DNA of 64,000 nt from the NCBI GenBank assembly GCA_902791165.1, contig CADAVB010000010.1, forward strand, positions 62,001 through 126,000. Reading direction: 5' to 3'. Each line of letters starts with the position of its first letter. The first letter of the stretch is position 1. A program made the translations under genes and the position numbers. The stretch comes from an uncultured Bacteroidia bacterium (GTDB taxonomy: Bacteria; Bacteroidota; Bacteroidia; Bacteroidales; F082). The notes under the pieces are model-generated. The model saw nothing but the letters and a program-made list of their open reading frames with translations. It made no database searches and had not been told where the DNA came from. This document shows, piece after piece, positions 43,641 to 61,881 of this stretch.

Positions 43641-44051
43641 TTATTTCCTACTCTTGCTTAACTGAACATCGTACACACTAACTATTTGGAAATCATGGTT
43701 AAGCTCAAAATGCTTCTCCAAAACAAAAATAGAATACCTTGATAGGTCCTTTCTGTCAATAGTAAAATCCTCAATATACGTTAAATAGATTTTTTCATCT
43801 GATTGAGTATAAGACACAGTATTCCATCTCACACTTGAATGTTTTCCGTACACGGAAAATGTTTCGTCATATCTTTCAAAGCACCCTGCGACATATTCTG
43901 AATCAGTATCATATGCGTTAAAATAACGCTTCACCTGAGGAGCAAACAATTCAGATACTAATAATTCAATTAACTGTTTATCGGAAGTTTCTGTCAATCT
44001 TGAATAACTTTCAATGAAAGATTGTATTCTGTAATCAATAACATCATTGAT
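43641..44051 (-). pseudogene. C-terminal half of zinc-ribbon protein after in-frame TAG
   Basis: This region continues the frame of the 44052-44525 gene straight through its TAG at 44052-44054, from INDVIDYRIQSFIESYSRL to KSRK at 43641. The segment ELFAPQVKRYFNAYDTDSEY and RYDETFSVYGKHSSVRWNTV looks like a normal folded C-terminal domain without further damage. Either a recent nonsense mutation truncates the protein or the stop is read through. Internal translation from TTG 43997 would give 118 residues without the zinc ribbon and membrane helix. Confidence 0.7.
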
Positions 44052-44525
44052 CTAAGGTTGCAACGACTTTATACTATCTTGAACGAACTGCTCTAGTTTT
44101 ATTATAACTGCACTAACATGACTGCCATTTGGAAATTCTTTCAAGTATTGGCGACATAATTGGGCAGTAGAACAGTTGTTAAAGGCAGTTTGTTCAACTT
44201 CCCTATAATGAACCTCAGCTTTGTGAATACTATCTGCTCTCAATTTTTGGATATTTTCAGAGGCTTGTAGAACAAACATTTCATCAGGATACCTGCTCAA
44301 ATACTCCATGTAATCAGTTGTAGTTGAACAACTTTGAAAAAAAGCCTCTTCTTTTGCAACTTCTTTTTTGCTTCTATTAAAAAGCACAATTGAAGTTGCT
44401 CCGATAAGCAGTATTCCAAACACTAAGAACAAAGGCCAAATAGCTCTTTTTACCTTGTTACCACAATACTCGCAAAAAACGCTATTGCTCTCAATTTCTC
44501 GATTACATTTTGGACATCTTTTCAT
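44052..44525 (-). CDS. Zinc-ribbon membrane protein, truncated by TAG
   Basis: A 157-residue protein from ATG 44525. The zinc ribbon CPKC-x12-CEYC (residues 4-22) is followed by a membrane helix (IWPLFLVFGILLIGATSIVLF) and repeated helical units ending in DYMEYLSRYPDE and CRQYLKEFPNG, each of TPR-like FxxCxT(x)nYLxxFPNG type. The same layout occurs in 45452-46201. It stops at a TAG and its C-terminal domain is read in the same frame after that codon. It is the last gene of the cluster. The N-terminal ribbon probably lies in the cytoplasm and binds a partner; function unknown. Confidence 0.75.
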   Translation of the reverse strand: MKRCPKCNREIESNSVFCEYCGNKVKRAIWPLFLVFGILLIGATSIVLFNRSKKEVAKEEAFFQSCSTTTDYMEYLSRYPDEMFVLQASENIQKLRADSIHKAEVHYREVEQTAFNNCSTAQLCRQYLKEFPNGSHVSAVIIKLEQFVQDSIKSLQP

Positions 44526-44551
44526 ATACAATAAACAACCTTGGTGTTTTG

Positions 44552-45430
44552 TTATTCACAATCCATAGCCAATCGGAATCCCAGAAAATCATTCCTTTGT
44601 CCGTGAGGAGTATAATATCTATATGTAATGCGGCTATAGTTCGCTCTGTTAAGCCATCCTCCTCCTCTACGAACACGTCCTTTTTCCGATGTTGATGGCC
44701 CTTGGGGGTTATACTCACTTTCTTCTGTATATCGAGCATACAAATCAGAGCAAATCTCCCATGCGTTACCCGTCATGTCATACAGCCCAAGCTCATTAGG
44801 CTGCTTCTGTTTTACAGGATGCGAAATACTATCACTCACTTCTAGACTCCATGCAACATCTTCTATTAAATTACTCCCAGAGAATTTATAACCTTTGCTC
44901 AAATTGCCTCCGCGAGCCGCATATTCCCATTCTGCTTCAGTTGGTAGCCTAAAACGGCAACCTGTCTTTTGGCTTAGTCTTTGACAGAACTCAACACAAT
45001 CGTTCCAACTAACACATTCGACTGGATAGTTGTTGCCGATATGCTGACTTGGATTGTAACCCATTACCTGTTTCCATAACTCTTGTGTAACCTCTGTCTC
45101 CCCGATGTAATAACTATCAAGCGAGACTCGATGCGCAGGTTTTTCCCATGCTTTGGATTCATAGTCGAATTCATTGGCACCCATTATGAAACTGCCTCCC
45201 TCAACCTTTTTCATCGTGAATGAAGCATCTCCAATCGAAAAAACGCGGCTGTGATCATCTTTAGCCCTGCTTTCTGGTGAAATGGAAACAATTAAGACAA
45301 TCAGAATAATTATTGCAGCACCAATTAACGCACCTATCAAAGGCCATTTTGATTTTTTTATTTTTTGGCCGCAATACTCACAATAGATGCTATTATCTTC
45401 TATTAATCTTTTACATTTAGGACAATACAT
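44552..45430 (-). CDS. Zinc-ribbon, membrane helix and SUMF1/FGE-like domain protein
   Basis: A 292-residue protein. Residues 1-22 are the zinc ribbon CPKC...CEYCG. A membrane helix follows (WPLIGALIGAAIIILIVLIV, about 30). Residues 65-290 are a formylglycine-generating-enzyme-like (SUMF1) domain: GGSFIMGANEFD, YYIGETEVTQELWKQVMG, PVECVSWNDCVEFCQRLS, RFRLPTEAEWEYAARGG, YDMTGNAWEICSD and FLGFRLA. The paired catalytic cysteines of true FGE near the C-terminus are not obvious, so it may bind rather than oxidise. Its N-terminus is paralogous to the two neighbours. Confidence 0.85.
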   Translation of the reverse strand: MYCPKCKRLIEDNSIYCEYCGQKIKKSKWPLIGALIGAAIIILIVLIVSISPESRAKDDHSRVFSIGDASFTMKKVEGGSFIMGANEFDYESKAWEKPAHRVSLDSYYIGETEVTQELWKQVMGYNPSQHIGNNYPVECVSWNDCVEFCQRLSQKTGCRFRLPTEAEWEYAARGGNLSKGYKFSGSNLIEDVAWSLEVSDSISHPVKQKQPNELGLYDMTGNAWEICSDLYARYTEESEYNPQGPSTSEKGRVRRGGGWLNRANYSRITYRYYTPHGQRNDFLGFRLAMDCE

Positions 45431-45451
45431 AAACTTTCTATTGTTTCAAAA

Positions 45452-46201
45452 CTATCGATATTCGATGTGGGTATAAAGTTTTGATACCCATAATTGTGTG
45501 CCTTTGAAATCTATTTTGTAAAAGTCACCAGATTCTCCCAAATAACGAAAAGCCTCTCCTACCTTTGGATGTCGGTTGGTTCCATCCTTCCATTTATAAG
45601 TATCAGCTGTTGTAGAAGGACCCAGTCGTAGGCGCAATTCTGAACCGTCTATGATAACATATCGGCTGGAACTGTTGTAATAATCATATTGTTGTTCCTG
45701 TTGGGGGTAATCATCATAATAATTCTGTTGATTCCTTTGAGCCGTTTCGATACTATCTTTGATAAAGTATTGAAGCTTTTCAATAACCTTTTTGGCATGT
45801 TCACCATTGGGGAATCCATTTAAATAATCTCGACATCCTTGTGCGTTTGTGCACTTGTTGAACGCGTTTTTTTCAGCTTCAGCTTGAAGTGCTTTTACTC
45901 TATTTATGCTGTCTTGAACTAGGTAGTTCAAGTTTCTTGTCGCATGTGAAATAAATTGCCCATTCGGGTATCGTGACAAGTATTTTCTGTAATCATCCGC
46001 ACTTCTGCATTGTTCAAAATACTGCTCTTCGCGTTCTTTTTTTGCATTATTTCCATGAATTAACAAAAATGTAACCAAGCCAATAACAGCAACCCCAAAT
46101 ACGAGAAACAGTGGCCACTTTGGCTTCTTTACTTTTTTGCCACAATATTCGCAATAGACACTTTCGTTTTCTATTTCTCTTTTACAATGAGGGCATTTCA
46201 T
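45452..46201 (-). CDS. Zinc-ribbon, membrane helix and SH3-like domain protein
   Basis: A 249-residue protein. The zinc ribbon CPHC...CEYCG is at residues 3-20 and the membrane helix WPLFLVFGVAVIGLVTFLLI at about 29. Two helical units with YRKYLSRYPNGQF and CRDYLNGFPNGEH follow (as in 44052-44525). The end (SSRYVIIDGSELRLRLGPST, DTYKWKDG, VGEAFRYLGESGDFYKIDF) has an SH3b-like pattern with LRLR..PS. SH3b domains often bind peptides or cell wall. It is 21 bp from the SUMF1-like gene and 11 bp from the TIR zinc-ribbon gene. Role unknown. Confidence 0.8.
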   Translation of the reverse strand: MKCPHCKREIENESVYCEYCGKKVKKPKWPLFLVFGVAVIGLVTFLLIHGNNAKKEREEQYFEQCRSADDYRKYLSRYPNGQFISHATRNLNYLVQDSINRVKALQAEAEKNAFNKCTNAQGCRDYLNGFPNGEHAKKVIEKLQYFIKDSIETAQRNQQNYYDDYPQQEQQYDYYNSSSRYVIIDGSELRLRLGPSTTADTYKWKDGTNRHPKVGEAFRYLGESGDFYKIDFKGTQLWVSKLYTHIEYR

Positions 46202-46212
46202 CTTTCAACAGT

Positions 46213-46731
46213 TTAATTATTGAATTTTTTTCCACACCACTTACAAAAAGCAGCATTTGTTTTTATTTTTTTACCGCATCGAGAACAAAACTTGACTTCA
46301 GACCAAGGATAAAACTTAACTAACCCTAACCATGAATGCAATTGCTCCATAAAAGCCATTTTTTCTGACCTTTCATTGAAATCAACTACAATGGCACGAA
46401 ATTCAAATTTCTTTAGTCTCAATCTTCCTTTTTCAATTTTCAAAGGAATTATACTCTTATTGATATTGCGGCAATAAGTTTGTACCCGGATTGCAAGTTC
46501 ATCAGCTTCAATGCTTTTTGAGAGCATAAATAATACAAAATCGGCCTGCTCAATAGCTGGTTCTACCACTTTTTCATAAAATACGTCTAAGTCACCAACT
46601 GTATGACGATCCCATAAGACATAGTTGGTTTCTAAAGTAGAATTGATTTCGTCCATTACAGACTTTGCCAAATCCTCCATGTCGCTCGCATAACAGACGA
46701 AAAACTTGTCCTGTACATTAACATTTTCCAT
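46213..46731 (-). CDS. TIR-domain protein with C-terminal zinc ribbon
   Basis: A 172-residue protein. Residues 1-130 have a TIR-like pattern: FFVCYASDMEDLAKSVMDEI (start), YVLWDRHTVGD (box 2 region), VVEPAIEQADFVLFMLSKSI and INKSIIPLKI. A short region later ends in a zinc ribbon FCSRCGKK...CKWCGKK (residues 148-168). TIR domains act as NADases or binding scaffolds; the catalytic glutamate cannot be assigned with confidence. The zinc ribbon resembles those of the following membrane proteins and may have a shared partner. It is 2 bp from the next TIR gene. Confidence 0.78.
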   Translation of the reverse strand: MENVNVQDKFFVCYASDMEDLAKSVMDEINSTLETNYVLWDRHTVGDLDVFYEKVVEPAIEQADFVLFMLSKSIEADELAIRVQTYCRNINKSIIPLKIEKGRLRLKKFEFRAIVVDFNERSEKMAFMEQLHSWLGLVKFYPWSEVKFCSRCGKKIKTNAAFCKWCGKKFNN

Positions 46732-46733
46732 CT

Positions 46734-47906
46734 TTATCGAATTTGTTTATATTCATAATGGACGGTGTCCAAATATCTAGACGGTGTGCCTAAATTACGC
46801 AAACTTGTATGAGACAGGCCATACAAATCCAATTCTTTGTTTAAGCGTTCATTAGCATCGTACCATGCAGACCTATTCCAATTATCGGTATCACTTATCA
46901 ATTGCTTTCTACGACGTTCATTTCGTCTTTCAACCATTTTATCTCTCCTACGTCTAATTATGTAATAACCTGCAATTATAAGTAATCCTGTACCTAATGC
47001 CACAAAACATAGTAGTATTGAAATGATCCAGAAAAAAATGCACAGTCCTTTACTATGTTCAATAGTCTCCGGATGGAACTCTGGATAAGGCTTCAACTTT
47101 GAACAATAATAGTTGTTGTATGAGTTGACGATAATATTTTGTTTCTTCTGGTCTTCTGAAGATGAAACTAGCATAAAATCTTTACGATTAGTCAAATCCC
47201 AACGCGGTATAGAATCGCTATCTGGATTGAACATGAAAGCCGAAGTGCCATATCTAGCCAATTGACGGACTCCATCAAGAGAAACTTCAAAATGAAGCTC
47301 ACTATCATTATCAGCAACTTGATACCGATATCGATTCCAACATCCATCTTTAGATTTTACAATAATGTCGCGACTTCCTTTAGCAAATACACATTTAAGT
47401 CCATCCCCTGTATCATTTCCCAAAACTTCATCGTTACGCATAATGACACTTGGTGTGTCAGCTTTTATAACAACCTTCGATCCATAAACATCGCCTACTT
47501 TGGTTAGGCCCAACCAACCATGCATTTGTTCAATAAGGCCAATTCGCTGACTTTCATCGTAAAAATCCACAACTTTGGTTCTAAATCCCCAATTTTTCTC
47601 TTTTATTCTTCCTGAACCTACTTTTATCGGAACCATGCTCTTGTTCAAGTTGCTGCACAATCGTATTGATTCATTTAACAAATAATCTTCTTCAGACTGC
47701 TTTCCAACAAATGCTAATACGAATTCCGCATCCTGAATAGCAGGTTCAACGACTTCCTGATAGTACTCAGTTTCGTCCTGTACATCAGCATACGACCATA
47801 GCTCATAATCGATGTTTAGACGTTTCTTGACAATGTTTAAGATTGCTTTTGTCTCGTCTTCACCATCCCTGGGATATGCAACAAAAAAATGATACTTTGA
47901 TTTCAT
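46734..47906 (-). CDS. TIR-domain membrane protein
   Basis: A 390-residue protein. The N-terminal TIR-like domain (residues 1-135) resembles that of the next gene: FFVAYPRDGEDETKAILNIV, YELWSYADVQDETEYYQE, VVEPAIQDAEFVLAFVGK and MHGWLGL. A central beta-rich region (about 145-260) has VIKADTPSVIMRNDEVLGND. A membrane helix is at about 288-316 (CIFFWIISILLCFVALGTGL), then a highly basic juxtamembrane stretch (RRRRDKMVERRNERRRK). The C-terminal tail (YDANERLNKELDLYGLS) is soluble. It is 20 bp from the GAP1-like gene and 2 bp from the second TIR gene. It may be the effector or the sensor. Confidence 0.78.
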   Translation of the reverse strand: MKSKYHFFVAYPRDGEDETKAILNIVKKRLNIDYELWSYADVQDETEYYQEVVEPAIQDAEFVLAFVGKQSEEDYLLNESIRLCSNLNKSMVPIKVGSGRIKEKNWGFRTKVVDFYDESQRIGLIEQMHGWLGLTKVGDVYGSKVVIKADTPSVIMRNDEVLGNDTGDGLKCVFAKGSRDIIVKSKDGCWNRYRYQVADNDSELHFEVSLDGVRQLARYGTSAFMFNPDSDSIPRWDLTNRKDFMLVSSSEDQKKQNIIVNSYNNYYCSKLKPYPEFHPETIEHSKGLCIFFWIISILLCFVALGTGLLIIAGYYIIRRRRDKMVERRNERRRKQLISDTDNWNRSAWYDANERLNKELDLYGLSHTSLRNLGTPSRYLDTVHYEYKQIR

Positions 47907-47926
47907 TTATTCTTGTCTTTTTAGAA

Positions 47927-50479
47927 TTATCCTACCTCTTCTGACTGTTGGAATTCCGGTGACGATTCTTCTTGACCGTCCTCTGTTTGTTGTAATTTAA
48001 GCTGTTGTCCTTCTGGTTTCAATGAGTCTGACACCTGCTCATCCAATTGTTCAGTGTTATCTATCATCTTCTCTTCAGTAACCACTTTGAAATAGGCGAT
48101 CCCTTCTTTTTCATTTACTGAATCAGCGTAAATGTCGCCAACATTGCTTCCTTTAGGTACTTCACTTTCAGGAGTAAGACCATTGATAAACCTTTTTACG
48201 ATTATATCTTCATCGGTTAGGGGAGAATAAACTTCAAGTTTGAGAAGAGTCTGGTCTTGTGTTTTAGGATGGCGCAGAAAAACGAAGTAACCAACTATTA
48301 GCAATGCGACCACAACAGGAACAATGAGACGCTTCAGCCAAACCATCATCTTATTGGGAGCTTCGTCAGAATCATTGCTTCCATCCGATTTTGAAGGCGA
48401 TGCCAATTTGTTCACCAAATCATCAAATTCGGCATCAGAAAGATTCAATTTTCCATCCTTGCGTAGTTTCTCAACAATTTTCTTGTTTTCACCGTTCTTT
48501 TTGAAATATGCAGCCAGCAGCTGCACTTTCAAAGGATGTCGATTTACTTTTTCATAGAACTCTATTCTTTCATGCTTCACATTGTTCACCAGTTGGTTCA
48601 CAAAAGTTTCAACATCCTTCTCTTTAATATATGGAAATCCTTTGTAGAAAAGCAATGAGGCCGATTGACCAGTATCAATCTTCAGTGCTCTTTCCACCAA
48701 TGCTGATGCGTTTTGTTCATTAAATTTACCACCCAAGAGTTGCATCAATTCATGGCAAGATTCAATACCATGCGGACGCTCTTGGTCTTTCATCAATGGA
48801 ACCAGTACATACTTGTCGATTTTTTCCGCCAAATCCGGATTTGGCAATTCAAGATGGTTTCGTTCCTGGTTGTCCAAGATATCCTTAATTCGCTTATATG
48901 GAATGTCGATTTCGGAAGCATCTCTTTTCGCCACTTCTGCAAAACAATCACAAAGTTGAATATCGCTGATGCCAAAGCCTTTGATGACTTCGTTCACAAC
49001 ACTTTCCGAAAGGTTGAGACTCAACATCTTTGACAGAATCTTCGCATAATCGTTTTGTTCAGAGTCGGGATAAAAATATTTATAGGTTTTAGGCCATTCC
49101 TTCTTAAGTTCATCCGTTTCAAGATAATCCTTTCTCCCTTCGAAGATTTCCTTAACAATATATTTGTCCAGACTCTTGATGCCGAGACTGTCGATGGCAT
49201 TTTTCAGAACTTCTGGACTCTCCAACAATTTGCAAGAAACACCCTTCTTTGCATTGGAAACAACCTCTTTAAGATTAAAACCTTTCGATTCCAATTTATC
49301 AACGAATTGCAACAAAGACAACCAGTTGTTCCCTTTAACCTGGTCATGAACCAAATTTACGCCCAAATGCTTGTCAAACAATTGTTGGTTATTACGGTCT
49401 TTAGCAAAATAATCACTTAACGATGTCAACAATTCGTCATCGCCATAGAACACTTGATTGAAATTGAACGATTTGGGATCAACCAAATAGTTATAAAACA
49501 CTTGTTTGGTCGAATCTTTCTTTCCCCTTACCCATTCATAGGCAGGACTCAACACCCACTTTAGGCTTTTCAAATACTCTTCACGATTGCCAGTGTCGAC
49601 GAACTTTTTCCATTCTTCACGGTAAGTTTTAGACTCATCTGTGATGACTTTGGCATTCTGCGTAACATCAAGCACATAATACTGTCCAGTGCTCTCATAA
49701 TCATATTTGTAATGCTCGTTGACGAAGAATACTTTGTAGCCTTCTTTCACACCTTCAAGTTGATAATTGGTATAGAAGAAAACTTCTTTCTTCATCTCAT
49801 CCGGCAGCAAACGAATCAAATCAGCCATCAATGAGGGGGCATCAGTTGCGGAGCACTTCACCAACAATGGAAGACGTTGACGGCATGACTCAATATAGGC
49901 GAAAAGCAATTCAAAAGCAAGCTCGGAGACCTGCTTGAGTCCTTGGCATGAGAAAGGCTTTTCTTCTTCCTCAAGCAATGCCATTTCTCCTAGTGAGAGC
50001 GAACGCATCTCTTCATTCTCGGGCGACGGCACCCTGTCACGAGGGATAAAGCTCACGCTACCCTGCCTTGGGTTTTCATAAAGAATCTCAAAAATTTCGG
50101 CAGTTGGTGGCTCCTCAAAGACATAGGCATCCGTGACGAAGTTGTCGACGCGTGCAGCCACGAATTTCACATAATACGGATAGTCAAATCCGACAGAAAC
50201 GGTGCGAGAAAGGACATAAATGACTTTACCTGTCTCCGCAGAATAGAGCTTGGCGAACCTATAGGTAGCTGGATAATTCAAAATGATTTTTCCATCCTCC
50301 ATTAATACTTTTGGCGAGGGCTGAAGCAGGTTGCCTGAAGTATAGTTGAAGAATTCATTGTCCTTCAACAAATTCATATAATCCTTGGGAGTTCCTTTTG
50401 TATAAGTACGGATTCCCAAACCTGCCGAACCGTCTTGTGTCCGTTGCGAAGAGTTGTATACAATGTGATAGTATTTCAT
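47927..50479 (-). CDS. GAP1-like (GTPase-associated protein 1) membrane protein
   Basis: An 850-residue protein. The N-terminus YHIVYNSSQRTQDGSAGLGI and following blocks (RFAKLYSAETGKVIYVLSRT, FVFEEPP-like) fit the GAP1-N domain known from GTPase-associated conflict systems. The middle is helical, with ADLIRLLPDEMKKEVFFYTN (about 220) typical of the family. A membrane helix is near residues 714-734 (LIVPVVVALLIVGYFVFL) with an acidic C-terminal tail. It lies 15 bp after the GTPase gene, which is the usual partner. Family assignment rests on motif memory, so a profile search should confirm it. No enzymatic motif is seen. Confidence 0.65.
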   Translation of the reverse strand: MKYYHIVYNSSQRTQDGSAGLGIRTYTKGTPKDYMNLLKDNEFFNYTSGNLLQPSPKVLMEDGKIILNYPATYRFAKLYSAETGKVIYVLSRTVSVGFDYPYYVKFVAARVDNFVTDAYVFEEPPTAEIFEILYENPRQGSVSFIPRDRVPSPENEEMRSLSLGEMALLEEEEKPFSCQGLKQVSELAFELLFAYIESCRQRLPLLVKCSATDAPSLMADLIRLLPDEMKKEVFFYTNYQLEGVKEGYKVFFVNEHYKYDYESTGQYYVLDVTQNAKVITDESKTYREEWKKFVDTGNREEYLKSLKWVLSPAYEWVRGKKDSTKQVFYNYLVDPKSFNFNQVFYGDDELLTSLSDYFAKDRNNQQLFDKHLGVNLVHDQVKGNNWLSLLQFVDKLESKGFNLKEVVSNAKKGVSCKLLESPEVLKNAIDSLGIKSLDKYIVKEIFEGRKDYLETDELKKEWPKTYKYFYPDSEQNDYAKILSKMLSLNLSESVVNEVIKGFGISDIQLCDCFAEVAKRDASEIDIPYKRIKDILDNQERNHLELPNPDLAEKIDKYVLVPLMKDQERPHGIESCHELMQLLGGKFNEQNASALVERALKIDTGQSASLLFYKGFPYIKEKDVETFVNQLVNNVKHERIEFYEKVNRHPLKVQLLAAYFKKNGENKKIVEKLRKDGKLNLSDAEFDDLVNKLASPSKSDGSNDSDEAPNKMMVWLKRLIVPVVVALLIVGYFVFLRHPKTQDQTLLKLEVYSPLTDEDIIVKRFINGLTPESEVPKGSNVGDIYADSVNEKEGIAYFKVVTEEKMIDNTEQLDEQVSDSLKPEGQQLKLQQTEDGQEESSPEFQQSEEVG

Positions 50480-50494
50480 GGCTGTTTTGTTTAA

Positions 50495-51769
50495 TTATTT
50501 ACATTTGATTCCAAAATCACCGAGTTTGATCAATATCCAAACCAATGGGTCGAGTACCCTAATGGGTTTAATTTCACCATCACCCTTGGTTTGGATTTCC
50601 ATGGCGCTGTCAGTCATCCCGCCCAATGCAGAAACTCCAAAGAATTGCCCGTTTTCGCCCCATTCGTTTTTAATATCAGTAACAAAGGCTTCTTCATCCC
50701 AAATATCAGAATCTTTCAAATAGCTCTCAATTGTATCGCTGTTTTCTTTCATCTCCTCTTTTGACACCAGTCCATCTCCATCGGTGATAAACTGACTGTT
50801 CTTAAAATTATCGTCTTTATCAAGAAAGTTGTCCACAGTGCAATTCAAGTCTTCGCAATTGTCAATGACAGCATCAAACTTGGTGAAGACAAAAGCATAC
50901 GGACGTTCATTCAACTTGTACGACTTGTGACCTTGACTAAAAGCTTTGATGGTATTCCACATTTCCGTGTAGTCGTACGCTTCTGTATAATTCTCTATTT
51001 CTTTCTTCTCCAGCACCTTCTTTATCTTTGGAATGGCAAGCGTGTCAAAGGCCACTATAACGGCCCTTGAATAACGGAAATACAAAGCATCGCGTTCCAT
51101 TTTCTCAGCATCTCTAAAAGATTCACCAGCTGTATCGTAGAATACGAGATAAACTGCCTTTTTTGTAATTCTACTTTCCAAACGTATTATCCACGGAATA
51201 GGATTTTTTGTTTCTTGCGTCTTTTGCAGCGCTTCCTTGTCTTCAAAGATCTTTTTCTTTGCAGCCTTATACATATTACTAGTCTTCTCCTCGTCGTTTC
51301 TCCCGACCTGTTGCAATGTCACGCTAAGCCCCAACTTATTCTGATATTTCATCAGCTGATGGATAAGTGCTACAATATAGTTTGACTTTCCGCTCGAGGG
51401 ACCACCTACCACCGAAATAATTTCAGACCCTTTTTCTATCATTTCAGCAGGCAGCCAATTATGGCAATGAGGGCAAACAAATTTTTGAGTCTCAATGTCA
51501 CAAATCGGGCATCTTTTGGCCTGGATCGGTTTCCAACCATGTCGCTCACCAAAAGTAAGATTGGCATCAAAAACACGCTTAATCTTAGTTTGCGTGCCCC
51601 AATGGTTATTGTATTTCTCATCATCAATTGGTGAACACTGCGGCACTCTCCTATAAATGCCTTGTTCGGTCATCTCTTGCTTTTCAGTTTTATTGACGCA
51701 TTGCATTTGCACCGCTCTCCTATCAAACGGAGTAAAACAATAAGGACAAAGAATGGTTACATTTGACAT
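50495..51769 (-). CDS. Zinc-ribbon GTPase (DO-GTPase-like)
   Basis: A 424-residue P-loop GTPase. Residues 1-105 hold zinc-binding pairs CPYC (8-11), CPIC (87-90) and CPHC (99-102). The G1 loop is GGPSSGKSNY (122-131), G3 is YDTAGESF (211-218) and G4 is FTKFD (295-299). The C-terminal portion is unrelated to ribosomal or cell-division GTPases. The architecture and location beside a GAP1-like gene fit the DO-GTPase group of GTPase-associated systems. It is cytoplasmic and could act as the molecular switch of the cluster. Neighbour spacing is 3 bp upstream and 15 bp downstream. Confidence 0.82.
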   Translation of the reverse strand: MSNVTILCPYCFTPFDRRAVQMQCVNKTEKQEMTEQGIYRRVPQCSPIDDEKYNNHWGTQTKIKRVFDANLTFGERHGWKPIQAKRCPICDIETQKFVCPHCHNWLPAEMIEKGSEIISVVGGPSSGKSNYIVALIHQLMKYQNKLGLSVTLQQVGRNDEEKTSNMYKAAKKKIFEDKEALQKTQETKNPIPWIIRLESRITKKAVYLVFYDTAGESFRDAEKMERDALYFRYSRAVIVAFDTLAIPKIKKVLEKKEIENYTEAYDYTEMWNTIKAFSQGHKSYKLNERPYAFVFTKFDAVIDNCEDLNCTVDNFLDKDDNFKNSQFITDGDGLVSKEEMKENSDTIESYLKDSDIWDEEAFVTDIKNEWGENGQFFGVSALGGMTDSAMEIQTKGDGEIKPIRVLDPLVWILIKLGDFGIKCK

Positions 51770-51772
51770 AGT

Positions 51773-53458
51773 TTATGACAATTTAATTTTTAGATGATTC
51801 TTTTTAAACACGTTTGGTGAAATGTTCTTGTCGGCAGGCCATATATGAGCAAATAACACATTTGCATCCTTAACGCCCGGGATCGGTATCTCGTGAGGTC
51901 CAAACTTCAACACACCTTTTTGTCCTTTTTCGCATTTTTCGCAAAAAGACTCATTAGGCTTGTATGACATGAAGTTTTCGGCATCAATAGTGAACATGCA
52001 ATCGAATGGGATGGCTTTACCATCAAGAACTTCAACCTCAACAGTAAGAAACTGTTTCCTTTTTTCGCTTGAGAGTGTATAACTCATATTGAATTTTCGC
52101 TTGCCGTCGTCATTAGGGTCTTCCAGTGGAGGCAGTTCTTTTTCCTCATCAATAGTGGGGGATTTCTCAAGACAGATTTCCACCTCATTACCATAGCCAA
52201 CCCCAATACTATTGACAGCATAGGCACGAACATAATAAGACTTTTTGACAGACAATCCTATCAAATCAACTGTAAACGTATCCCCTTCTACATCGCTTTT
52301 AACATGCGAATCCTTGACGGTCGGTTCATGATTGACGCTCCAGCACACGCCACGTTCAACCACTTTTGAGCCACCATCGTTCATCACGACTCCGCGCACA
52401 ATGGAATCACCCAATTCAGTATTCAAGACAGGTGTACCTCCGAGAAATTGTTTAAGAATATAGTTTCTGATACCAGCCCTGAATTCTTGTGTCTCATCTG
52501 AAACCGGATCAAATTGATTAAACGACTCACGGAAAAACTTATTCCCAGCAGCATAGCCTTGTAACACAATGCCTGTAGTTTCATATTTCAAGCCTGACTC
52601 ACCGACCACATCAGATATCAGCGAGGCAAACATATTGGCATCAGGCGGAGAATAAACGTTATACTGTTCTCTGTTCAAAAACACTTGATAATCCATTTTA
52701 TCAGGCAAACGCAATGAAGTCATTTCTGACTTCCCTTGGGTAAGAAATGCATCAAGTTGTTTTTCAATGTATGGGACACACTCCTCTTCTTCACAATAGG
52801 TATAAGACTGTACCTCCTTCCATAGTTTTCTAACCGCCCACTCAAATCTTGGGTCTCGGCCTCTGTAAGGATAGCGTCGTTCAAAGGTCAAATGGTAATC
52901 TGTGAGGTCGAAACACTTGATGGAGAGATCTTTGTTGTCGCTCAACACTACCATAGCATCGGTCTCACGCGACCAGTTGTAGCGCGGACTGCTTTGGAAG
53001 TACTTGACCGCTTCAACTGCTTGAATCAGGGAGTGCAATTCAGCAAAGCCGTCATTCCGCAAACCTTCATACACATTTTTTCTTTCTTCTGAACCAATAT
53101 CATTACCAAAAAGCAGCAACAAAGAAACTTGGTCGACCTTTGTTCTAAATTTGACGAAAAATTTATGGTCAAAGAGATCATCCAACATAATCCTAACGAC
53201 TTCGGGGATGAACTGTTTCGATTCAATATCGTTGCATTTCAATGGTTGACCTTGCACGTCGAATAAGTCAGCATAAGCTTCTTGTACGCCATTCTCCACA
53301 GCGTTGAGAGCTGCCTGTCCGATCTCGAACCGGCCATTCACCCAGGCTATGGCCAATGGGATAGGGTTATTGAAAGTCTCAAAAACCCTATTCCCATTAT
53401 CCAGATAGTAATACAGCCCAATTGTTCGTCTTGTAATATCGGCTAATACATAGTTCAT
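51773..53458 (-). CDS. Degenerate Hsp70-like (actin-fold) protein with Fn3-like domain
   Basis: A 561-residue protein. Residues 1-320 look like an actin/Hsp70 fold: MNYVLADITRRTIGLYYYLD, NPIPLAIAWVNGRFEIGQAA (compare Hsp70 tPSvva...vGqaA) and TGIVLQGYAAGNKFFRESF (compare the Hsp70 adenosine motif). The phosphate-1 glycines and threonines are missing, so it may not hydrolyse ATP. Residues 345-430 form an Fn3-like segment (VVERGVCWSVNHEP, YYVRAYAVNSIGVGYGNEV) and the C-terminus is an extra beta domain. It lies 8 bp from the large ATPase gene and 3 bp from the GTPase gene. It could be a pseudo-ATPase partner of the large protein. Confidence 0.65.
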   Translation of the reverse strand: MNYVLADITRRTIGLYYYLDNGNRVFETFNNPIPLAIAWVNGRFEIGQAALNAVENGVQEAYADLFDVQGQPLKCNDIESKQFIPEVVRIMLDDLFDHKFFVKFRTKVDQVSLLLLFGNDIGSEERKNVYEGLRNDGFAELHSLIQAVEAVKYFQSSPRYNWSRETDAMVVLSDNKDLSIKCFDLTDYHLTFERRYPYRGRDPRFEWAVRKLWKEVQSYTYCEEEECVPYIEKQLDAFLTQGKSEMTSLRLPDKMDYQVFLNREQYNVYSPPDANMFASLISDVVGESGLKYETTGIVLQGYAAGNKFFRESFNQFDPVSDETQEFRAGIRNYILKQFLGGTPVLNTELGDSIVRGVVMNDGGSKVVERGVCWSVNHEPTVKDSHVKSDVEGDTFTVDLIGLSVKKSYYVRAYAVNSIGVGYGNEVEICLEKSPTIDEEKELPPLEDPNDDGKRKFNMSYTLSSEKRKQFLTVEVEVLDGKAIPFDCMFTIDAENFMSYKPNESFCEKCEKGQKGVLKFGPHEIPIPGVKDANVLFAHIWPADKNISPNVFKKNHLKIKLS

Positions 53459-53466
53459 CTGTCATA

Positions 53467-56400: not shown

Positions 56401-57273
56401 CGAATAATTGAATATGATGCTATAAGGAGAGGTAAAACCCGTCACTGGGTTGGCTGCGGCTTTCTCCACATCATCTTCAATTTCATGTCGGATATCTTCC
56501 AACCATATTTGCAAACGTTTTGCAATGAGTCCATAACCAGGTCTCAAGCCTTCATCTAGGTTCTGATAGTAGGCTGTGAAATCGCCTGTGAGGTTGTCAA
56601 TTAGGTTCTTGACATAAGCATACAAGGCTAACCAATCTTTGCCACCCACATTACCATACTTCACGGGATTGCGGAATTTACCCTCAGGTGCATAACGCGG
56701 ATCAGGAGTGATGCTGTAGGACGGAGCCGTAAACAACAGACATTCAGGCGAGGTGCCCCCAACCACTTGATTATTGTATTTGATTACGTTGATAAATGGC
56801 TTCTTAATGCCATTGTCTTTGGTCTGTTCGCACCAGAGCGGTTTGCGTTCGAACAACAAGTTGCCAAAAGCACCTTTAGCTTCATAGATATTACCCGTTT
56901 CAGACAACCCCTTGCCATCCGAATAATCAAGTTCAATACGCTTGATTTGCAGTTTTCCAGAATCAAGAGCGATGCAAGTAATCAAACCAAACCATTCGTC
57001 AACCAAGTCGTTGTAATACTCGATCATTCCAGCAGAGGCTGCATTCGACATGGAATCGCCAGAATAACTTAGAGCAAGTGAGAACATATTGGCTCTGGCA
57101 AAAACAGTTGGGATACCAGAAACAATCGCACTTTTGTCCGCGTTCTCATCAAGTTTTGGCGTCTCAATGTCACGAGTGAAGCCTTGCATATTACCGATGG
57201 TTTCCCATTTCTCGAGAACACCATTGAGCCTAGAACGCTCTTTTACATCAATTACTAATGCTTTATTTGCCAT
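53467..57273 (-). CDS. Large Hsp70/actin-superfamily ATPase
   Basis: A 1268-residue protein. Residues 1-585 are a long N-terminal region without a family I recognise. The ATPase part starts at 586: the phosphate-1 motif is LGFDFGSTNSSVAY (587-600) and phosphate-2 is VYCFDVGGSTTDISAL (907-922). The two are separated by an unusually long insertion with a serine/aspartate-rich stretch (around 828-850). C-terminal GLKFYEKHL-type helices follow. It resembles SrfB/Hsp70-like proteins more than DnaK. The ATG is preceded by AAGGAGG at a good distance, rare in Bacteroidetes. It follows the tubulin-like gene by 13 bp and probably forms a complex with its products. Confidence 0.8.
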   Translation of the reverse strand: MANKALVIDVKERSRLNGVLEKWETIGNMQGFTRDIETPKLDENADKSAIVSGIPTVFARANMFSLALSYSGDSMSNAASAGMIEYYNDLVDEWFGLITCIALDSGKLQIKRIELDYSDGKGLSETGNIYEAKGAFGNLLFERKPLWCEQTKDNGIKKPFINVIKYNNQVVGGTSPECLLFTAPSYSITPDPRYAPEGKFRNPVKYGNVGGKDWLALYAYVKNLIDNLTGDFTAYYQNLDEGLRPGYGLIAKRLQIWLEDIRHEIEDDVEKAAANPVTGFTSPYSIIFNYSDEMYGSNGSINSRYVAGYTAFKAEDLLLPRNSEIARVMLAPQAVENYSQLPIQLLEARVKGDELKSRAYFALPLSVIGLKIFGSSVSALVGQQNNDVILSKMTAEFDPTAKDNNLTVYLTLNTEDGKSKNIVTVYTVKNDRIIKKVDVLLWPNFISGQWNKYFMYSELPHGVTSIGFNAVPFVGEQRDGKFLPISDAEGNPIYLTEEEKELKRHNIDAKLLVTSDHRVAENPYKYEIYQSNKPFSGLKLTSGIDKDGKEKSSGFLLIRYAQGNDGSLLPKNLMETNVNFKSKGVRLGFDFGSTNSSVAYSDPNDDDNTKGKGLMFKNRRVSLFGADNITGKYQPKDFFFFSKKETRSNAMKSVLTLHDQRRMPADSVAYKEMPVAGGIPCFLSNLPIKSVTSNTISLDFGDNVEAMLINSMKWSDSPVEKAYKTAYLRTVLLMVYAELFEKGLKPTELNWSYPSTMEWNMISNHYNTIWQNLGGSNVSPILENGNVVPLEVMDIAYQKTGSLETNGDVFGEFSSQPHLGDSYSSNPFDMSSSSDSGLSQSIKEDSFDDMFGEKAVVQKKVKKLDLMPNDPKKELIFQQISTKSPMTEACASANYTAQSADVRNKLVYCFDVGGSTTDISALFALRNGVPHMIKQNSIRFAAQRVSAATRELHDEFGHVLTRVCNEFNIKLIGFNIGESRYSSSTAPYYYEQIVDILNNDQLKFFYNKIAELCPRLFAVNMYVTGLIMFYAGQLARPLIEATNANIAPGLARPRGFQPIFEGKGARIFDWLSIKNYPKADAYFKAMFKTGAQLPQMDSSFIDLSGLQNGRPNDDVKFEVSKGVASPNGELQEPAKGQSFEIFGENGFKGHDPEGGVHEYDFTTMITPDWMREIGGFIRQDVPSCDCFTKFLGTYYKAVGDILGLNMDMEECKRGLSNMNIEQYVTQELPRFKDAMERYRNNKPFDYVAPIIIIEGLKFYEKHLLKCFK

Positions 57274-57286
57274 AATTCAGTCCTCC

Positions 57287-58936
57287 TTACTTTGTGTCAT
57301 AGTTTTGAGCTTTTGCAATTCCCTTGTAAATATGAGCAAGGAATTTCTCCTTCACCGTATTCACGTGTTGTACCTCCTCTTTCGGCTTACAAGTAGGATC
57401 GTCGGAGATTATTTTAGCTAGAGTGTTATAGTTGGAACCAAAAACACCATGTTTCCATCTATGTTTTTCATCCATAAAGATGTTTCCTGGGTCAATGTTC
57501 TCAAGCCGTTTCGGGTCTTCCTCAAAGGCCGAACTCTTGAAAACGAACTGTCCCGAACCGATGGAACTATGGATTTGATAAATCCATCCCGGAACAAATT
57601 CGCGCTTGGCATTGATGTCATAAGCGAACATCTTCAAATACTTATCAATGTCTTTCGTCTGTTCATCGGTCAGTCCGTCGTAATCATGTGTATTCTGTTG
57701 TGCCAAGAATTTAATGAAAGCCTTGGTACCAAGCTCTCCTTGTTTGGTGGCGGCTCCATTCAGCGAAAGCACAATATGGGCAAAAGACAAGAACACGCCC
57801 AATTTGTTGGCGAGGAGATCGCTATCGTTGGCCACAAAGGTCTTCCCAGTAAAGATGAAGGCGTTGCTCTTCTCTTCCACGCTTCTGTAAACGTATTCAA
57901 CCTTTTCGTTGTTCAACGCATCTGCATTGAGAGTGAAGAAGTCGTATGCAGCACAAGCACACAACAGTTCGACAACATGGCAGTTATTGGTCTGCTCGGC
58001 TCCACCTGTCAAAGTTTTTCCCGATGTCGCATGAGACATACGCATGCTCTCTGGCCAACCGATATGATAAAAACGCTTATAATACTTCTTCACTGTAGGA
58101 TCTGACTGATAGAACTGAAGTGCAGCCTGACTATTAATGGCGAAGTTATCGGACGAGGCGATAATTTTCTCCGCATCCTTTTCCTTCTTGTCAGGCGGAT
58201 TGAAGGAGAAATATTGTGTCAATAGGGTGGAGCCGAACTTCACGTTATCCAAATCAAGCGTCAACGCACTGTCGAGTGACGAGGCGTCTTTCAATGCCTT
58301 AGGAATGATTGGGATGGACGAAGCTCCTGTGCCACCAAAAACCGAGCCAAAGACGAACACGCGTGCGTTTGGTTCTGTCACCAACGCTCTGATGAATTCG
58401 GCAAGCGACTTTTGGTGTGGCAAAGCTTGATCCTTGTTATCAACCACTCCCTTCATGGCTTCAACTATGCCATGATACATCAGCAAACTGCCCAAATGGG
58501 TTTGAGCACGATAACCATGTTCCAGATTAAATTCCTGCACTTTCGGGTCAAAGAAGAGGTCGGAAAGATCCTTGTCGTCCTTTTCAATCTCATCGCCATT
58601 GGCGATGCCCGCAGACAAAGGTGCTGAAAGCAGATTGAAGTTACGGCGATTCTGATTGCTGTAGTCAGTAAAGAACTTATACAACTTGATTTTGGCCGAA
58701 AAGAAGGTGTCTGTATTGGCGCCACCTTCGTTAGCGCCATCGCTCTTCACCTTATTATACAATTCAATCAAACCTTCCACACGACTCTTGTTGCCATTGG
58801 AATAATCAGTATCAAGGGTAAGGACATTGATCTCCCTTCCATCAAACATGCCGATAGCACACAAATGGACAAACGACTCAAGGCATCTCATGCCTGTGCC
58901 GCCAATGGCAATCACAAATAATTTACTGTTATCCAT
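57287..58936 (-). CDS. Tubulin/FtsZ-superfamily GTPase
   Basis: A 549-residue protein. The N-terminus FVIAIGGTGMRCLESFVHL (7-25) resembles the first nucleotide-contacting segment of tubulin-like proteins. The tubulin signature loop is VFGSVFGGTGASSIPIIP (195-212, compare GGGTG(T/S)G). It is much longer than FtsZ, with a C-terminal extension from about 400. The family matches a set of tubulin-like proteins found in bacterial conflict and gas-vesicle contexts (the Tubulin_2 type). It has no signal peptide. It precedes the Hsp70-like ATPase by 13 bp and follows the membrane protein gene by 27 bp. Polymer formation is inferred only from the fold. Confidence 0.8.
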   Translation of the reverse strand: MDNSKLFVIAIGGTGMRCLESFVHLCAIGMFDGREINVLTLDTDYSNGNKSRVEGLIELYNKVKSDGANEGGANTDTFFSAKIKLYKFFTDYSNQNRRNFNLLSAPLSAGIANGDEIEKDDKDLSDLFFDPKVQEFNLEHGYRAQTHLGSLLMYHGIVEAMKGVVDNKDQALPHQKSLAEFIRALVTEPNARVFVFGSVFGGTGASSIPIIPKALKDASSLDSALTLDLDNVKFGSTLLTQYFSFNPPDKKEKDAEKIIASSDNFAINSQAALQFYQSDPTVKKYYKRFYHIGWPESMRMSHATSGKTLTGGAEQTNNCHVVELLCACAAYDFFTLNADALNNEKVEYVYRSVEEKSNAFIFTGKTFVANDSDLLANKLGVFLSFAHIVLSLNGAATKQGELGTKAFIKFLAQQNTHDYDGLTDEQTKDIDKYLKMFAYDINAKREFVPGWIYQIHSSIGSGQFVFKSSAFEEDPKRLENIDPGNIFMDEKHRWKHGVFGSNYNTLAKIISDDPTCKPKEEVQHVNTVKEKFLAHIYKGIAKAQNYDTK

Positions 58937-58963
58937 ATTCAGTTCACATTTTTATATTGATGT

Positions 58964-59416
58964 TTAGAACCAGTTACCGATTTTCTTGGTCTTGAAAATC
59001 TTGCTTAAAACAAAACCTAAAAGCACATACAACACGAAAGTAATTCCAGCTGAGATGCCTGCCATCAACATGTAATGGTCATAAGCTTTTTTGAAAGCTG
59101 CCTTTTGGGCTGGTGTGACTTTGGAGAGGCTGTTGACCATAGTCGGTGTCATGTCAGGATTGAATACGAAGAAAAGTAACACAAATGTAAGCACCGTAGC
59201 CAAAATGCCAAACAACCAAAACCACAACCGACGTTTCTGTGGATCTCTTGGGTTGGCTCCTGGTTCAAACTTAATCATGTTGGCAACGAGCATAGCCAAC
59301 AAAAGGAACACTAAAGCGGATAGTACACCGACCAAAACTACTGTCATGTCGGGCTGAACGCTTGGGATGGTTGCGGTCTTTGACGCAACTCTAGCTGCTG
59401 CTTGTAATAACACCAT
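58964..59416 (-). CDS. Small membrane protein with three membrane helices
   Basis: A 150-residue protein with three hydrophobic helices: DMTVVLVGVLSALVFLLLAM (about 23-48), WFWLFGILATVLTFVLLFFV (about 65-85) and MLMAGISAGITFVLYVLLGF (about 116-138). The basic end IFKTKKIGNW suggests a cytoplasmic C-terminus. No family is recognised. It is 27 bp from the tubulin-like gene and 47 bp from the lipoprotein gene. It may anchor the complex to the inner membrane. Confidence 0.7.
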   Translation of the reverse strand: MVLLQAAARVASKTATIPSVQPDMTVVLVGVLSALVFLLLAMLVANMIKFEPGANPRDPQKRRLWFWLFGILATVLTFVLLFFVFNPDMTPTMVNSLSKVTPAQKAAFKKAYDHYMLMAGISAGITFVLYVLLGFVLSKIFKTKKIGNWF

Positions 59417-59463
59417 AATTTTTGAATTTAAGTGATTAATAATTTTAGTTGATTGATTTACTC

Positions 59464-61071
59464 TTATCCTTTAATAATGTAGGTATGTACCACTTCTCCG
59501 TCATAATCAAGTCCTTTGCTCTGTTGGAGAACATTGAGTATTGACCGAGAGATGCAGTCATTTGTTTTATTCAAATCCCTAACCATCTTGCTCCCGTCTT
59601 TATTCCAAATATTCGACTTGAAATCAAATAATTGGTTTAGCTTTGACGCATTGTCGAAACTAGTATAAGCCACGCAAACATCCACTTGAAGCACATGCCC
59701 ATCAAACCTGGATATCCTCTCAAATAATTCTTCATCGACGAGATTGCAACTGCCTATCTCGTTATCCTGAAACTCAGCATCAGAGTATATCTTGGCAAAA
59801 TCAATGATAATATGAGTCTTGCTTGGATCTTCGGCTCGACTCCTCTCAAAGGCTTCTTGATTGATTTCAAGCAATTCTTCGTTGACGACAGGCTTACTAA
59901 ATGGTTTGTACTCATATTCGGGAAGTAGATTCCCTTCTGCATCATAAAAACAAGCCTCTGGTGATTTTGGGTCAATCTGAATGATTTCACTACCATTTCC
60001 ATCGTCAACAGACTGAGGTTTGTAACGCATGGCAAATTGATGGTCTGAATATGCATAAAAGTCTTCGGTAATATCTGTTATTTTCAATTTCAGACTCTTG
60101 ATGTTGCGTGTTTCTTCATTCGACAAATCAATATAAAGCTTATAGAGCAAACCTTCGCATTTTTTGTCCATTTGCTTGGCCTGGTGCAACTCAGAAAGCA
60201 CAGTGCTCCATGGATTGGCCATGTCATAGAACTCTATTTGTCCGTCCGAATAACTTCCATATTCCTGAAGGATCATTGGGTCGGCATTATCTTCATAGTT
60301 TCCTCCCTTTCCAGGGCGATAGTCAGTAAATACACGGTAGGAATCTCTCCTCAAAACATATTCTTGGTAGTTGTGCGCCCCGCCAGTCATTGATTGGTCA
60401 ATTTTTTTCGACAATTCCATCTTCTTATTGTCAAAGACCACAAAGAAAAGTTTTTTGTTGAGGTTTCCGCTTCTTAGAGTCTCCACAAAATCCATAATGT
60501 AGAATTTGATGACTCCACCTTTTAGTAACCATGCTTCAAAGTCTTCAGTAGCGTAGGCTGTTTCCTCAATGATTTCCTTACCCATCACGTCCGACTTTTC
60601 ATATTCCTCGAAATCAGTTACTAGCAATGCAAGTTTGTCATCATTAACAATCTCACGTAAGGCAACATTAATGGGGGCTTTGATCGCAGTACAATTAGTA
60701 TTAATGATTTTTTGGTAGAGTTCGGTTTGAGATAGGTCTTCGCGTTTCACTTGGTCGTAAGCCAACGAATAAACCTCCCATTCGTCTTTGAATCCTGTGA
60801 TGAGTTTGGTGACACTCTCAAGATTCTTCCGATTTTCTGGCACGTTATAGGCATATCGCATTCCATTAGAGAAATCAAAGTAGGCCGAATAGCCAGAAGC
60901 AAATTGATGTTCTGCAACTTCAGTACTGCAATGATTGAGATAATCACGCACCTGTTCTTTCATTGGGGTGTCGTTTTCAGGGCATTCTTTAGGAGGACAT
61001 CCTGTCAAAGTCACAAGCAATACAGCAAGGACTACTATTGAAGCCAGTTTCGATAAATTTTCTTTTTTCAT
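59464..61071 (-). CDS. Lipoprotein with vWA-like domain
   Basis: A 535-residue lipoprotein (VVLAVLLVTLTGCPPKEC, Cys 25). From residue 58, SGYSAYFDFSNGMRYAYNVP gives a degenerate MIDAS-like DxSxxM pattern, and LALLVTDFEEYEKS (about 150) gives the following strand, as in von Willebrand factor A domains. The C-terminal region (DPSKTHIIIDFAKIYSD, RFDGHVLQVDVCVAYTSF) looks like further beta structure. The protein would be in the periplasm or outer leaflet facing the membrane partners of the operon. It is 32 bp from the first gene of the cluster and 47 bp from the membrane protein gene. The vWA assignment is tentative. Confidence 0.65.
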   Translation of the reverse strand: MKKENLSKLASIVVLAVLLVTLTGCPPKECPENDTPMKEQVRDYLNHCSTEVAEHQFASGYSAYFDFSNGMRYAYNVPENRKNLESVTKLITGFKDEWEVYSLAYDQVKREDLSQTELYQKIINTNCTAIKAPINVALREIVNDDKLALLVTDFEEYEKSDVMGKEIIEETAYATEDFEAWLLKGGVIKFYIMDFVETLRSGNLNKKLFFVVFDNKKMELSKKIDQSMTGGAHNYQEYVLRRDSYRVFTDYRPGKGGNYEDNADPMILQEYGSYSDGQIEFYDMANPWSTVLSELHQAKQMDKKCEGLLYKLYIDLSNEETRNIKSLKLKITDITEDFYAYSDHQFAMRYKPQSVDDGNGSEIIQIDPKSPEACFYDAEGNLLPEYEYKPFSKPVVNEELLEINQEAFERSRAEDPSKTHIIIDFAKIYSDAEFQDNEIGSCNLVDEELFERISRFDGHVLQVDVCVAYTSFDNASKLNQLFDFKSNIWNKDGSKMVRDLNKTNDCISRSILNVLQQSKGLDYDGEVVHTYIIKG

Positions 61072-61103
61072 AAGAGTATTAGTTTATTGTTGCAAATAAA
61101 AAT

Positions 61104-61529
61104 TCATTTTCTAATCAAGTTTAGGAAGTCTCTAATATCTTCAAAAACATTATTTAAATCATCACCAAACCTTTGCAACAAATCCAGTCCCTCCTCGCCA
61201 AAGAAACTAGAGATGTACGGTGTTAGATTCGATATTATATTTCCTGGCGCATGTGAAAGTGTACGTAAATACCTTTCCTCATATTCGGCAATTGCGGCAA
61301 TGTCATCACTCGACATTTTTTCCTGATAGGTTTCAAACTGCTCCTCGAAAGACTTAAACTTGTCAAAAGACCATTTCCAATCTTCCAAGGTGTAAGTGGT
61401 GTGATTTGACTCCACTTGCGAAACAAATTCTTCAAATGAATTCATGTATTGTCTTTTTGCACTATTACATGATGTCAAAGCCATCATGCTAACAAATAGA
61501 AGCAATACTCTCAAGATGTTTTTGTCCAT
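61104..61529 (-). CDS. Small helical lipoprotein, first gene of the cluster
   Basis: A 141-residue lipoprotein (VLLLFVSMMALTSCNS, Cys about 21). The rest is helical and acidic (FKSFEEQFETYQEKMSSDDI), with no family recognised. The start ATG at 61529 is preceded by AAAGGAG with 8-bp spacing, a Shine-Dalgarno sequence unusual for Bacteroidetes. It is the promoter-proximal gene of the operon, with a structured leader upstream (61604-61844). Confidence 0.7.
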   Translation of the reverse strand: MDKNILRVLLLFVSMMALTSCNSAKRQYMNSFEEFVSQVESNHTTYTLEDWKWSFDKFKSFEEQFETYQEKMSSDDIAAIAEYEERYLRTLSHAPGNIISNLTPYISSFFGEEGLDLLQRFGDDLNNVFEDIRDFLNLIRK

Positions 61530-61844: not shown

Positions 61845-61850
61845 ATGCCG

Positions 61851-61881
61851 CAAAAATACAACAATTCCATTACAAAACAAA
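61851..61881 (-). promoter_or_regulatory. Promoter of the NTPase/TIR cluster
   Basis: On the minus strand TTTG at 61878-61881 is followed after exactly 19 bp by TATTTTTG at 61851-61858, matching the full TTTG-N19-TAnnTTTG Bacteroidetes promoter consensus. It is the best full match in the window and lies about 320 bp upstream of the first gene. Confidence 0.75.

Follow-up and report, generated by a model that had tools for sequence, protein, structure and literature searches.

A Bacteroidota tubulin/Hsp70-type operon with a DO-GTPase–GAP1–TIR head as a candidate envelope-protection system

What might a bacterial operon do that combines GTPase, TIR, tubulin-like and Hsp70-type proteins with a set of membrane proteins? 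We studied such an operon in an uncultured Bacteroidales bacterium of family F082 (GenBank assembly GCA_902791165.1), within a window of 64,000 nucleotides, the whole stretch of DNA analyzed (contig CADAVB010000010.1, positions 62,001 to 126,000). On the minus strand, at 43641–61529, it comprises 13 co-directional genes, A–M, and a fragment, N, with gaps of 2–47 bp (Table 1), as foreseen in the original prediction of about thirteen genes lying nearly head to tail. That prediction, made without database searches, also listed the encoded parts (largely correctly, judging by Pfam, hydropathy, alignments and fold comparison) and knew of no described system with this combination. The operon very probably belongs, as a Bacteroidota representative, to the DO-GTPase/GAP1-N2 class, an assignment much surer than its function. 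We infer envelope or phage protection as that function; specifically, we give an even chance to the hypothesis that a conserved core and a DO-GTPase–GAP1–TIR head form an envelope-spanning, nucleotide-switched assembly that detects envelope attack and triggers a protective membrane response.

The class assignment comes from genes G and H. Kaur et al. (2020; eLife 9:e52696, PMC7159879) predicted DO-GTPase/GAP1 systems with zinc-ribbon, transmembrane (TM), tubulin, HSP70, vWA, SH3 and FGE-sulfatase (FGS) parts, and with G passing both DO-GTPase models and H assigned to GAP1-N2/M, the supposed lack of a described counterpart is only partly upheld. At the family level, DO-GTPase2 was matched by 14/14 G proteins (E ≤ 0.01) and DO-GTPase1 by 11/14. 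D212, A214, G215 and E216 are invariant, including the Walker B Glu, as are the Cys residues of the N-terminal zinc ribbon (C8, C11, C24, C45, C87, C90, C99 and C102). Members of the H family matched GAP1-N2 (12/15) and GAP1-M (7/15) at E ≤ 0.1, window H by itself scoring below the cut-off (13.6 vs 24 bits). The GAP1 gene (N2 and M domains scored) lies downstream of the DO-GTPase gene, the placement that the class requires. No second DO-GTPase copy was found, the window's own genome giving one DO-GTPase match.

Relatives of E delimit the conserved core. The E profile comprised 36 sequences of the 120 listed among 759 found, and gene order was compared across the best 80 of 109 confirmed E places in genome contigs. 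By their titles, these 80 loci presumably all belong to Bacteroidota except L010, a metagenome-assembled genome (MAG) titled Saccharibacteria, which shares with L026 an identical E and core genes of equal length. D stands immediately before E in 79/80 loci, and the two were never on opposite strands; the order B-C-D-E recurs in 70/80, E-F in 73/80, and the C family precedes D-E in 73/80. An A-like gene lies immediately 5′ of B-C in 7/80. Gene-order comparison and profiles uphold the original view of one conserved membrane-linked system with GTPase/GAP1, TIR and vWA-like parts. The objection that these genes might rarely be found together fails for the B-C-D-E core; it stands for the TIR form, which occurs in 4/80 loci (homologues of I fall into 14 protein clusters).

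Downstream of F, gene content varies. TerD genes follow in 51/80 loci (one intervening gene allowed), and named Pedobacter, Chitinophaga and Flavobacterium strains are among the carriers of this form; G-H follows in 15/80. Nine further stretches end at E or F, and L023, L034, L037 and L082 have other content after F. L078 has E without F directly after it; counting TerD anywhere in the stretch gives 52 loci, L078 making the difference. L066 is the only locus with both G-H and TerD, its two TerD genes lying on the opposite strand, 11 kb upstream; the same MAG holds a second, nearly identical G-type copy on a different contig (L076). At L023 (13898–18803), F carries a fused DnaK-like domain, recognized by eye, and a 731-aa protein, with no Pfam match at E ≤ 0.01, replaces TerD or the GTPase. 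In eleven of the 15 G-type loci, H is followed by a second GTPase-family protein that is longer, and the two sampled (L059 and L042) exceed the DO-GTPase2 cut-off. In the other four (L003, L074, L075 and L080) and in the window, TIR-like proteins occupy its place. No second GTPase was found in the stretches of these four TIR loci, of which L003, L075 and L080 end near the last TIR-like/zinc-ribbon gene.

Trees of core and head genes disagree. In a tree of E (75 rows, quick method, some long branches flagged by the tree tool), the TIR forms fall into two starred groups, window + L003 and L074 + L075 + L080. The TerD label requires 7 changes on this tree, 6 of the changes being forced by starred branches, compared with a shuffled mean of 20.7 (0/500 as low). 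L074 and L075 share 84.5% identity in D and 80.1% in E, 57.9% in B, 68.1% in C, 51.9% in F, 51.6% in G and 32.4% in H; L075 and the window share 58.9% in G and 36.6% in H, but only 37.8% in E. With starred support, the G and H trees place L075 with window + L003, and L074 with L080. Approximately unbiased (AU) tests, on groups named after the trees had been seen, reject window + L003 + L075 for E (p 0.0024) and D (p 2e-72), and L074 + L075 for G (p 3e-9) and H (p 5e-5). Faster change in G and H is insufficient alone, because G and H of L075 resemble those of the window despite the low identity in E. The simplest reading of these sequences is that the G-H(-TIR) cassette transfers between cores, independently of the core.

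What the exchangeable position does may be judged from its other occupant. The position of the GTPase–GAP1–TIR head is taken in relatives by TerD proteins together with a TM protein that has TerD-like motifs. Ter systems are implicated in inhibiting phage and in colicin resistance (passages of PMC8123226). By analogy, TerD in the head position points to Ter-type protection (phage, colicin, envelope stress) rather than suicide through NAD loss. More broadly, and with slightly less confidence than an even chance would imply, we suggest that the tubulin-like GTPase, Hsp70-type ATPase, pseudo-Hsp70 and vWA-like lipoprotein may constitute a general engine with interchangeable sensor heads, each recruited by its own membrane-protein tag. 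Candidate heads would be the TerD pair, DO-GTPase–GAP1–GTPase, DO-GTPase–GAP1–TIR and perhaps kinase–PP2C. The last may be seen at L147 (742–11565), where PP2C and a 472-aa protein come after B-C-D-E, a protein kinase is encoded on the opposite strand, and neither G nor TerD was recognized in the stretch; this is possibly a third head type, with a single example. If the engine exists, Ter stress systems and DO-GTPase conflict systems would be two inputs to one envelope-defence machine, in which TIR domains serve as MyD88-like scaffolds. One tubulin/Hsp70-type core serving either a DO-GTPase or a TerD head would, if shown, link two unexplained classes and make both testable.

Nine TerD-type loci (L006, L007, L010, L024, L026, L045, L069, L073 and L081) also carry a P-type ATPase-like open reading frame (ORF; motif DKTGTLT) on the same strand, 5–11 genes after E and downstream of TerD. 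Jug phages, with predicted Bacteroides hosts, encode TerD genes and a calcium P-type ATPase (passages of PMC12363816); a common calcium connection between TerD loci and these phages is worth a look.

The TIR proteins I and J invite a different explanation, abortive infection, in which core and GTPase would sense phage and the TIR proteins would kill the cell through NAD+ destruction. TIR domains are indeed present, as first predicted, and passages of PMC7159879 list TIR among the effectors of GAP1-N1 and MoxR-vWA systems. I has no Pfam match of its own. The closest solved relatives of a profile built from 11 TIR domains were the TIRs of MyD88 (E 7e-5). Glu is absent from the catalytic column in 10/10 TIRs of the system; we take the position of this column from NADase motifs, with L041, the sole TIR from outside the system in the alignment, as a guide, and L041 has Glu there. 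That a second GTPase replaces the TIR proteins in most G-type loci also speaks against killing. Two further observations favour abortive infection: Glu stands one column early in I and in one L080 protein, and the TIR profile also weakly matches SPARTA TIR-APAZ (E 0.017). MyD88 is a scaffold; because Glu is missing from the usual column and MyD88 is the best match, a scaffold role is favoured, and the TIR domains are more likely scaffolds than NADases. The two TIR proteins of the original prediction thus stand, an NADase-type effector role for them appears the less likely one, and we regard abortive infection as quite improbable. A bacterial MyD88-like TIR scaffold and a pseudo-Hsp70 would, if real, meet here within one signalling machine.

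The membrane proteins of the two head types seem to follow a common plan. Seven zinc-ribbon/TM proteins from the window and its sister locus (L003/L141; further ribbon-like matches in the sister genome were left out) share a 27-residue ribbon with 66.5% mean pairwise identity (minimum 57.7, four Cys included). Their outer parts include SH3-like, FGS, YARHG and GldM-like types, and clear alignments among the 21 pairs are limited to K–M (45% identity over 95 aa past residue 60) and K with the sister SH3 protein, the remaining 19 being weak. At TerD loci, 47 proteins directly 3′ of TerD carry an FDLSKG-like motif within the first 120 residues (37/47) and a TM segment by hydropathy (44/47); the motif occurs in 3/1144 other ORFs. 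This count is partly selected, since the 47 were chosen by a profile seeded from three such proteins, and just 43/101 TerD-profile matches have the motif in the first 45 residues. The two membrane proteins sampled from TerD loci have CW_7 and OmpA as outer domains. With both heads, a cytoplasmic protein seems to be partnered by membrane proteins whose tag is constant and whose outer part varies, and docking may proceed through the tags (zinc ribbon or FDLSKG-like motif).

Two observations touch the window's own array. At 43641–44531 on the minus strand, M and N form one frame broken by a single TAG, and the end of the sister zinc-ribbon/SH3 protein in L141 aligns with N at 58% identity over 106 aa; M–N is either a membrane-protein array member in decay or the product of an assembly error. 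Elsewhere in the same genome (L142, 1–831, contig C67), a protein end is 65% identical to the SH3-like end of K; the zinc ribbon is absent from its visible part, which starts at the contig edge.

The sequences themselves establish the gene order, the families of G and H, a conserved core and head exchange between cores. In the protective assembly that we propose beyond this, K, L and M would sample the envelope through their variable outer domains (SH3-like, FGS), as would B, with the constant zinc-ribbon tags of the three on the cytoplasmic side. The DO-GTPase G, together with the GAP1 protein H held by its C-terminal TM segment, would act as the switch, and I (in the membrane) and J (by its zinc ribbon) would be scaffolds linking it to K, L and M through TIR–TIR and zinc-ribbon contacts. 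The switch would then drive assembly or remodelling of a D-E-F complex beneath the membrane, with the tubulin-like D, E as a predicted active Hsp70-type ATPase and F as its inactive Hsp70-type partner.

The C-terminal part of E is predicted to be an Hsp70/actin-like ASKHA domain with its phosphate motifs kept: across the 36 sequences, DFGSTN (590–595) and GKGxR (1062–1066) are invariant and DVGGSTTD (911–918) nearly so, with 47% identity to a DnaK-like loop across 17 columns. F has the fold of an Hsp70 nucleotide-binding domain without phosphate motifs; its residues 342–447 have a predicted local distance difference test (pLDDT) score <50, and a partial match of 352–438 to an arabinosidase model scores far below the cut-off. 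Comparison of hidden Markov models (HMMs) detected no similarity between the C-terminal part of E and F. D is tubulin-like by family (PF00091 in 22/23 and Tubulin_2 in 19/23 members at E ≤ 0.01), the window copy by itself being below the Pfam cut-off (24.1 vs 33 bits). B carries metal-ion-dependent adhesion site (MIDAS)-like motifs, D66xS68xG70 and D153xE155 (alignment invariants), and is vWA-like by the weak fold matches, mostly vWA chains, of its AlphaFold2 (AF2) model (pLDDT 86, predicted template modelling score (pTM) 0.82). A PDB sequence-profile search gave two weak matches for B and none for E or D.

Could this be housekeeping instead? A constitutive machine for envelope maintenance or cell organization would be an envelope-tethered, cytoskeleton-like tubulin/Hsp70-type assembly without a defence role. 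Three points count for it: 19/80 loci are titled Pedobacter; the variable outer domains include OmpA, SH3-like and CW_7; and 3/6 distant loci have a D-E pair without B, C, F or head within the stretch. These six were read from 10 clear further genomes of the order and comprise the three D-E pairs (L143, L145 and L146), L147 and two cases of E without D; the lone pair is perhaps the ancestral engine. The distribution is patchy: of 100 genomes in the window's family, its own alone was found to contain E, and in its order 13/393 genomes do, a count that includes its own and two marginal matches. This patchiness and the exchange of head cassettes between cores speak against constitutive maintenance, as may candidate defence genes near some G-type loci. 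Among 52 unassigned proteins (≥100 aa) from the 15 G-type loci, a few of them inside operons, 51 PADLOC models were matched at E ≤ 1e-10, compared with 6 for a control of 52 proteins drawn at random from 473 in other loci. The 25 models shown represent candidate PDC families and AbiEii, each matching one protein and related models the same protein; these genes are a weak hint, the number of proteins behind the 51 models not being given. Constitutive maintenance is, in our estimate, unlikely, though clearly a stronger contender than abortive infection. No relatives of E were found in viral contigs, plasmids or phage records.

Lipoproteins and membrane proteins in one operon could also suggest a secretion or polysaccharide-type apparatus, with tubulin/Hsp70-type parts powering export, and one sister zinc-ribbon protein matches GldM_1st (26.4 vs 25 bits; GldM_2nd below cut-off). 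HMM searches, proposed from the start as the check on this point, found no secretion or outer-membrane-channel family above cut-off in Pfam (14 proteins) or NCBIfam (A–H). We rejected this candidate, which we consider highly improbable, and the cluster is not refuted on that count.

Table 1. Predicted features of the operon, in window coordinates.
Feature	Coordinates	Strand	Evidence
Bacteroidota-type promoter match upstream of A	61851..61881	-	Only strict intergenic match on this strand, 43000-62300
A, lipoprotein, DUF6565 family	61104..61529	-	Pfam DUF6565 31.1 bits vs cut-off 24.5; lipobox by eye
B, lipoprotein with predicted extracytoplasmic vWA-like domain (~58-227)	59464..61071	-	Lipobox by eye; predicted fold
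C, small protein, three predicted TM segments	58964..59416	-	Hydropathy
D, tubulin/FtsZ-like protein	57287..58936	-	Family profile matches; invariant GGTGASS
E, 1268 aa	53467..57273	-	N-terminal ~580 aa without assignment; predicted Hsp70/actin-like (ASKHA) C-terminal part
F, degenerate Hsp70 nucleotide-binding-domain fold (1-343) and variable C-terminal region	51773..53458	-	Predicted fold
G, zinc-ribbon DO-GTPase	50495..51769	-	PF19975 36.1 bits, PF19993 30.5 bits, cut-offs 27
H, GAP1-N2-type GTPase-associated protein, one predicted C-terminal TM segment (717-735)	47927..50479	-	Family profiles; hydropathy
I, TIR-like domain, middle region, one or two predicted TM segments (282-317)	46734..47906	-	TIR alignment; hydropathy
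J, soluble TIR domain and C-terminal zinc ribbon	46213..46731	-	TIR_2 28.5 vs 28 bits; Cys pairs from 149
K, zinc ribbon - TM - SH3-like domain	45452..46201	-	SH3_3 21.8 bits vs cut-off 27; hydropathy; alignment
L, zinc ribbon - TM - FGS domain	44552..45430	-	FGE-sulfatase 155.9 bits; TM by hydropathy
M, zinc ribbon - TM - K-like region; front part of interrupted frame	44052..44531	-	In-frame TAG
N, rear part of M-N frame behind TAG	43641..43997	-	Alignment to sister protein

The cluster is AT-richer than its surroundings, as had been noted (40.8% GC across the operon stretch vs 50.7% for window bases 1–42000), and the single promoter noted for it has a candidate in one match to the Bacteroidota consensus, searched as TTTG-N17-23-TAnnTTTG. 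Immediately upstream of the operon lie tRNA-Arg and tRNA-Tyr (62236–62417, minus strand), the only matches above the gathering score in an Rfam search of 61000–64000. An integration scar was sought, and the 3′ end of tRNA-Arg is present once in the window. In eight stretches from same-genus genomes (one <3 kb), the aminotransferase and tRNA-Arg are retained in 8/8 and tRNA-Tyr was found near the aminotransferase in 4/8, with no match to the operon genes; the other flank (transketolase) is located elsewhere in these genomes, and an empty site is thus not demonstrated. An AAA_14/DUF4143 ATPase gene (42094–43440, plus strand) is convergent with the operon and excluded from its parts.

How does the operon compare with known systems? 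TIR-based defence includes Thoeris and SPARTA. The operon shares TIR domains with them; in contrast, I and J have no PADLOC match to either, Glu is missing from the usual column and MyD88 is the best match. Two hits at E ≤ 1 (0.0063 and 0.06) were all that a PADLOC-DB scan of ten operon proteins gave (B and D–L; A, C, M and N lay outside it), and these ten indicate membership in no known PADLOC anti-phage system. The likeness to Ter systems lies in TerD following F in most core relatives and in the vWA and TM parts described for Ter, systems described as conferring resistance to phages and xenobiotics (passages of PMC7824862). The window operon differs in its GTPase–GAP1–TIR head, a comparison made on TerD, for which the window's genome gave 0 matches. 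In gammaproteobacteria, some psp operons contain a DO-GTPase gene for which a membrane-stress role is predicted (passages of PMC11237479). In a search that left most subscription papers outside, we found no paper other than PMC7159879 joining TerD, tubulin and DO-GTPase/GAP1, and none reporting DO-GTPase/GAP1 experiments.

The closest counterpart is the DO-GTPase/GAP1-N2 class as described in the available passages of PMC7159879, where its conflict role is a prediction. Shared features are a zinc-ribbon DO-GTPase, a GAP1 gene just downstream whose product has a C-terminal TM segment, and, in relatives, a second TM-bearing GTPase; the passages also name tubulin, HSP70, vWA, SH3 and FGS parts, to which the tubulin-like, predicted Hsp70-type, vWA-like, SH3-like and FGS proteins of the operon would correspond. 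There, the GTPase has zinc ribbon(s) in 60% of systems and a second DO-GTPase copy occurs in 38%. Tubulin + vWA is the largest theme in those passages and kinase-PP2C-vWA the third, which L147 resembles by PP2C and kinase beside B-C-D-E. An FNIII-repeat component is also named; Pfam found no FNIII match among the 14 operon proteins. The paper's main text mentions TerD a single time, listing it as a nucleotide-binding domain. The combination of parts is not itself new, because section 6 already describes one class joining GTPases, tubulin homologs and an HSP70. The operon nevertheless departs from the GAP1-N2 systems of those passages in several respects: its host belongs to Bacteroidota, a phylum not named there for GAP1-N2; a tubulin-like and two Hsp70-type proteins share one fixed core, whereas the GAP1-N2 tubulin and HSP70 themes of section 29 are non-overlapping; TIR proteins, which there belong to GAP1-N1, sit in the place of the second GTPase; variable membrane proteins carry a constant zinc-ribbon tag; and the same core is also linked to TerD. 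What appears to be new is the Bacteroidota core with a TIR head, and the swap between TerD and GTPase heads.

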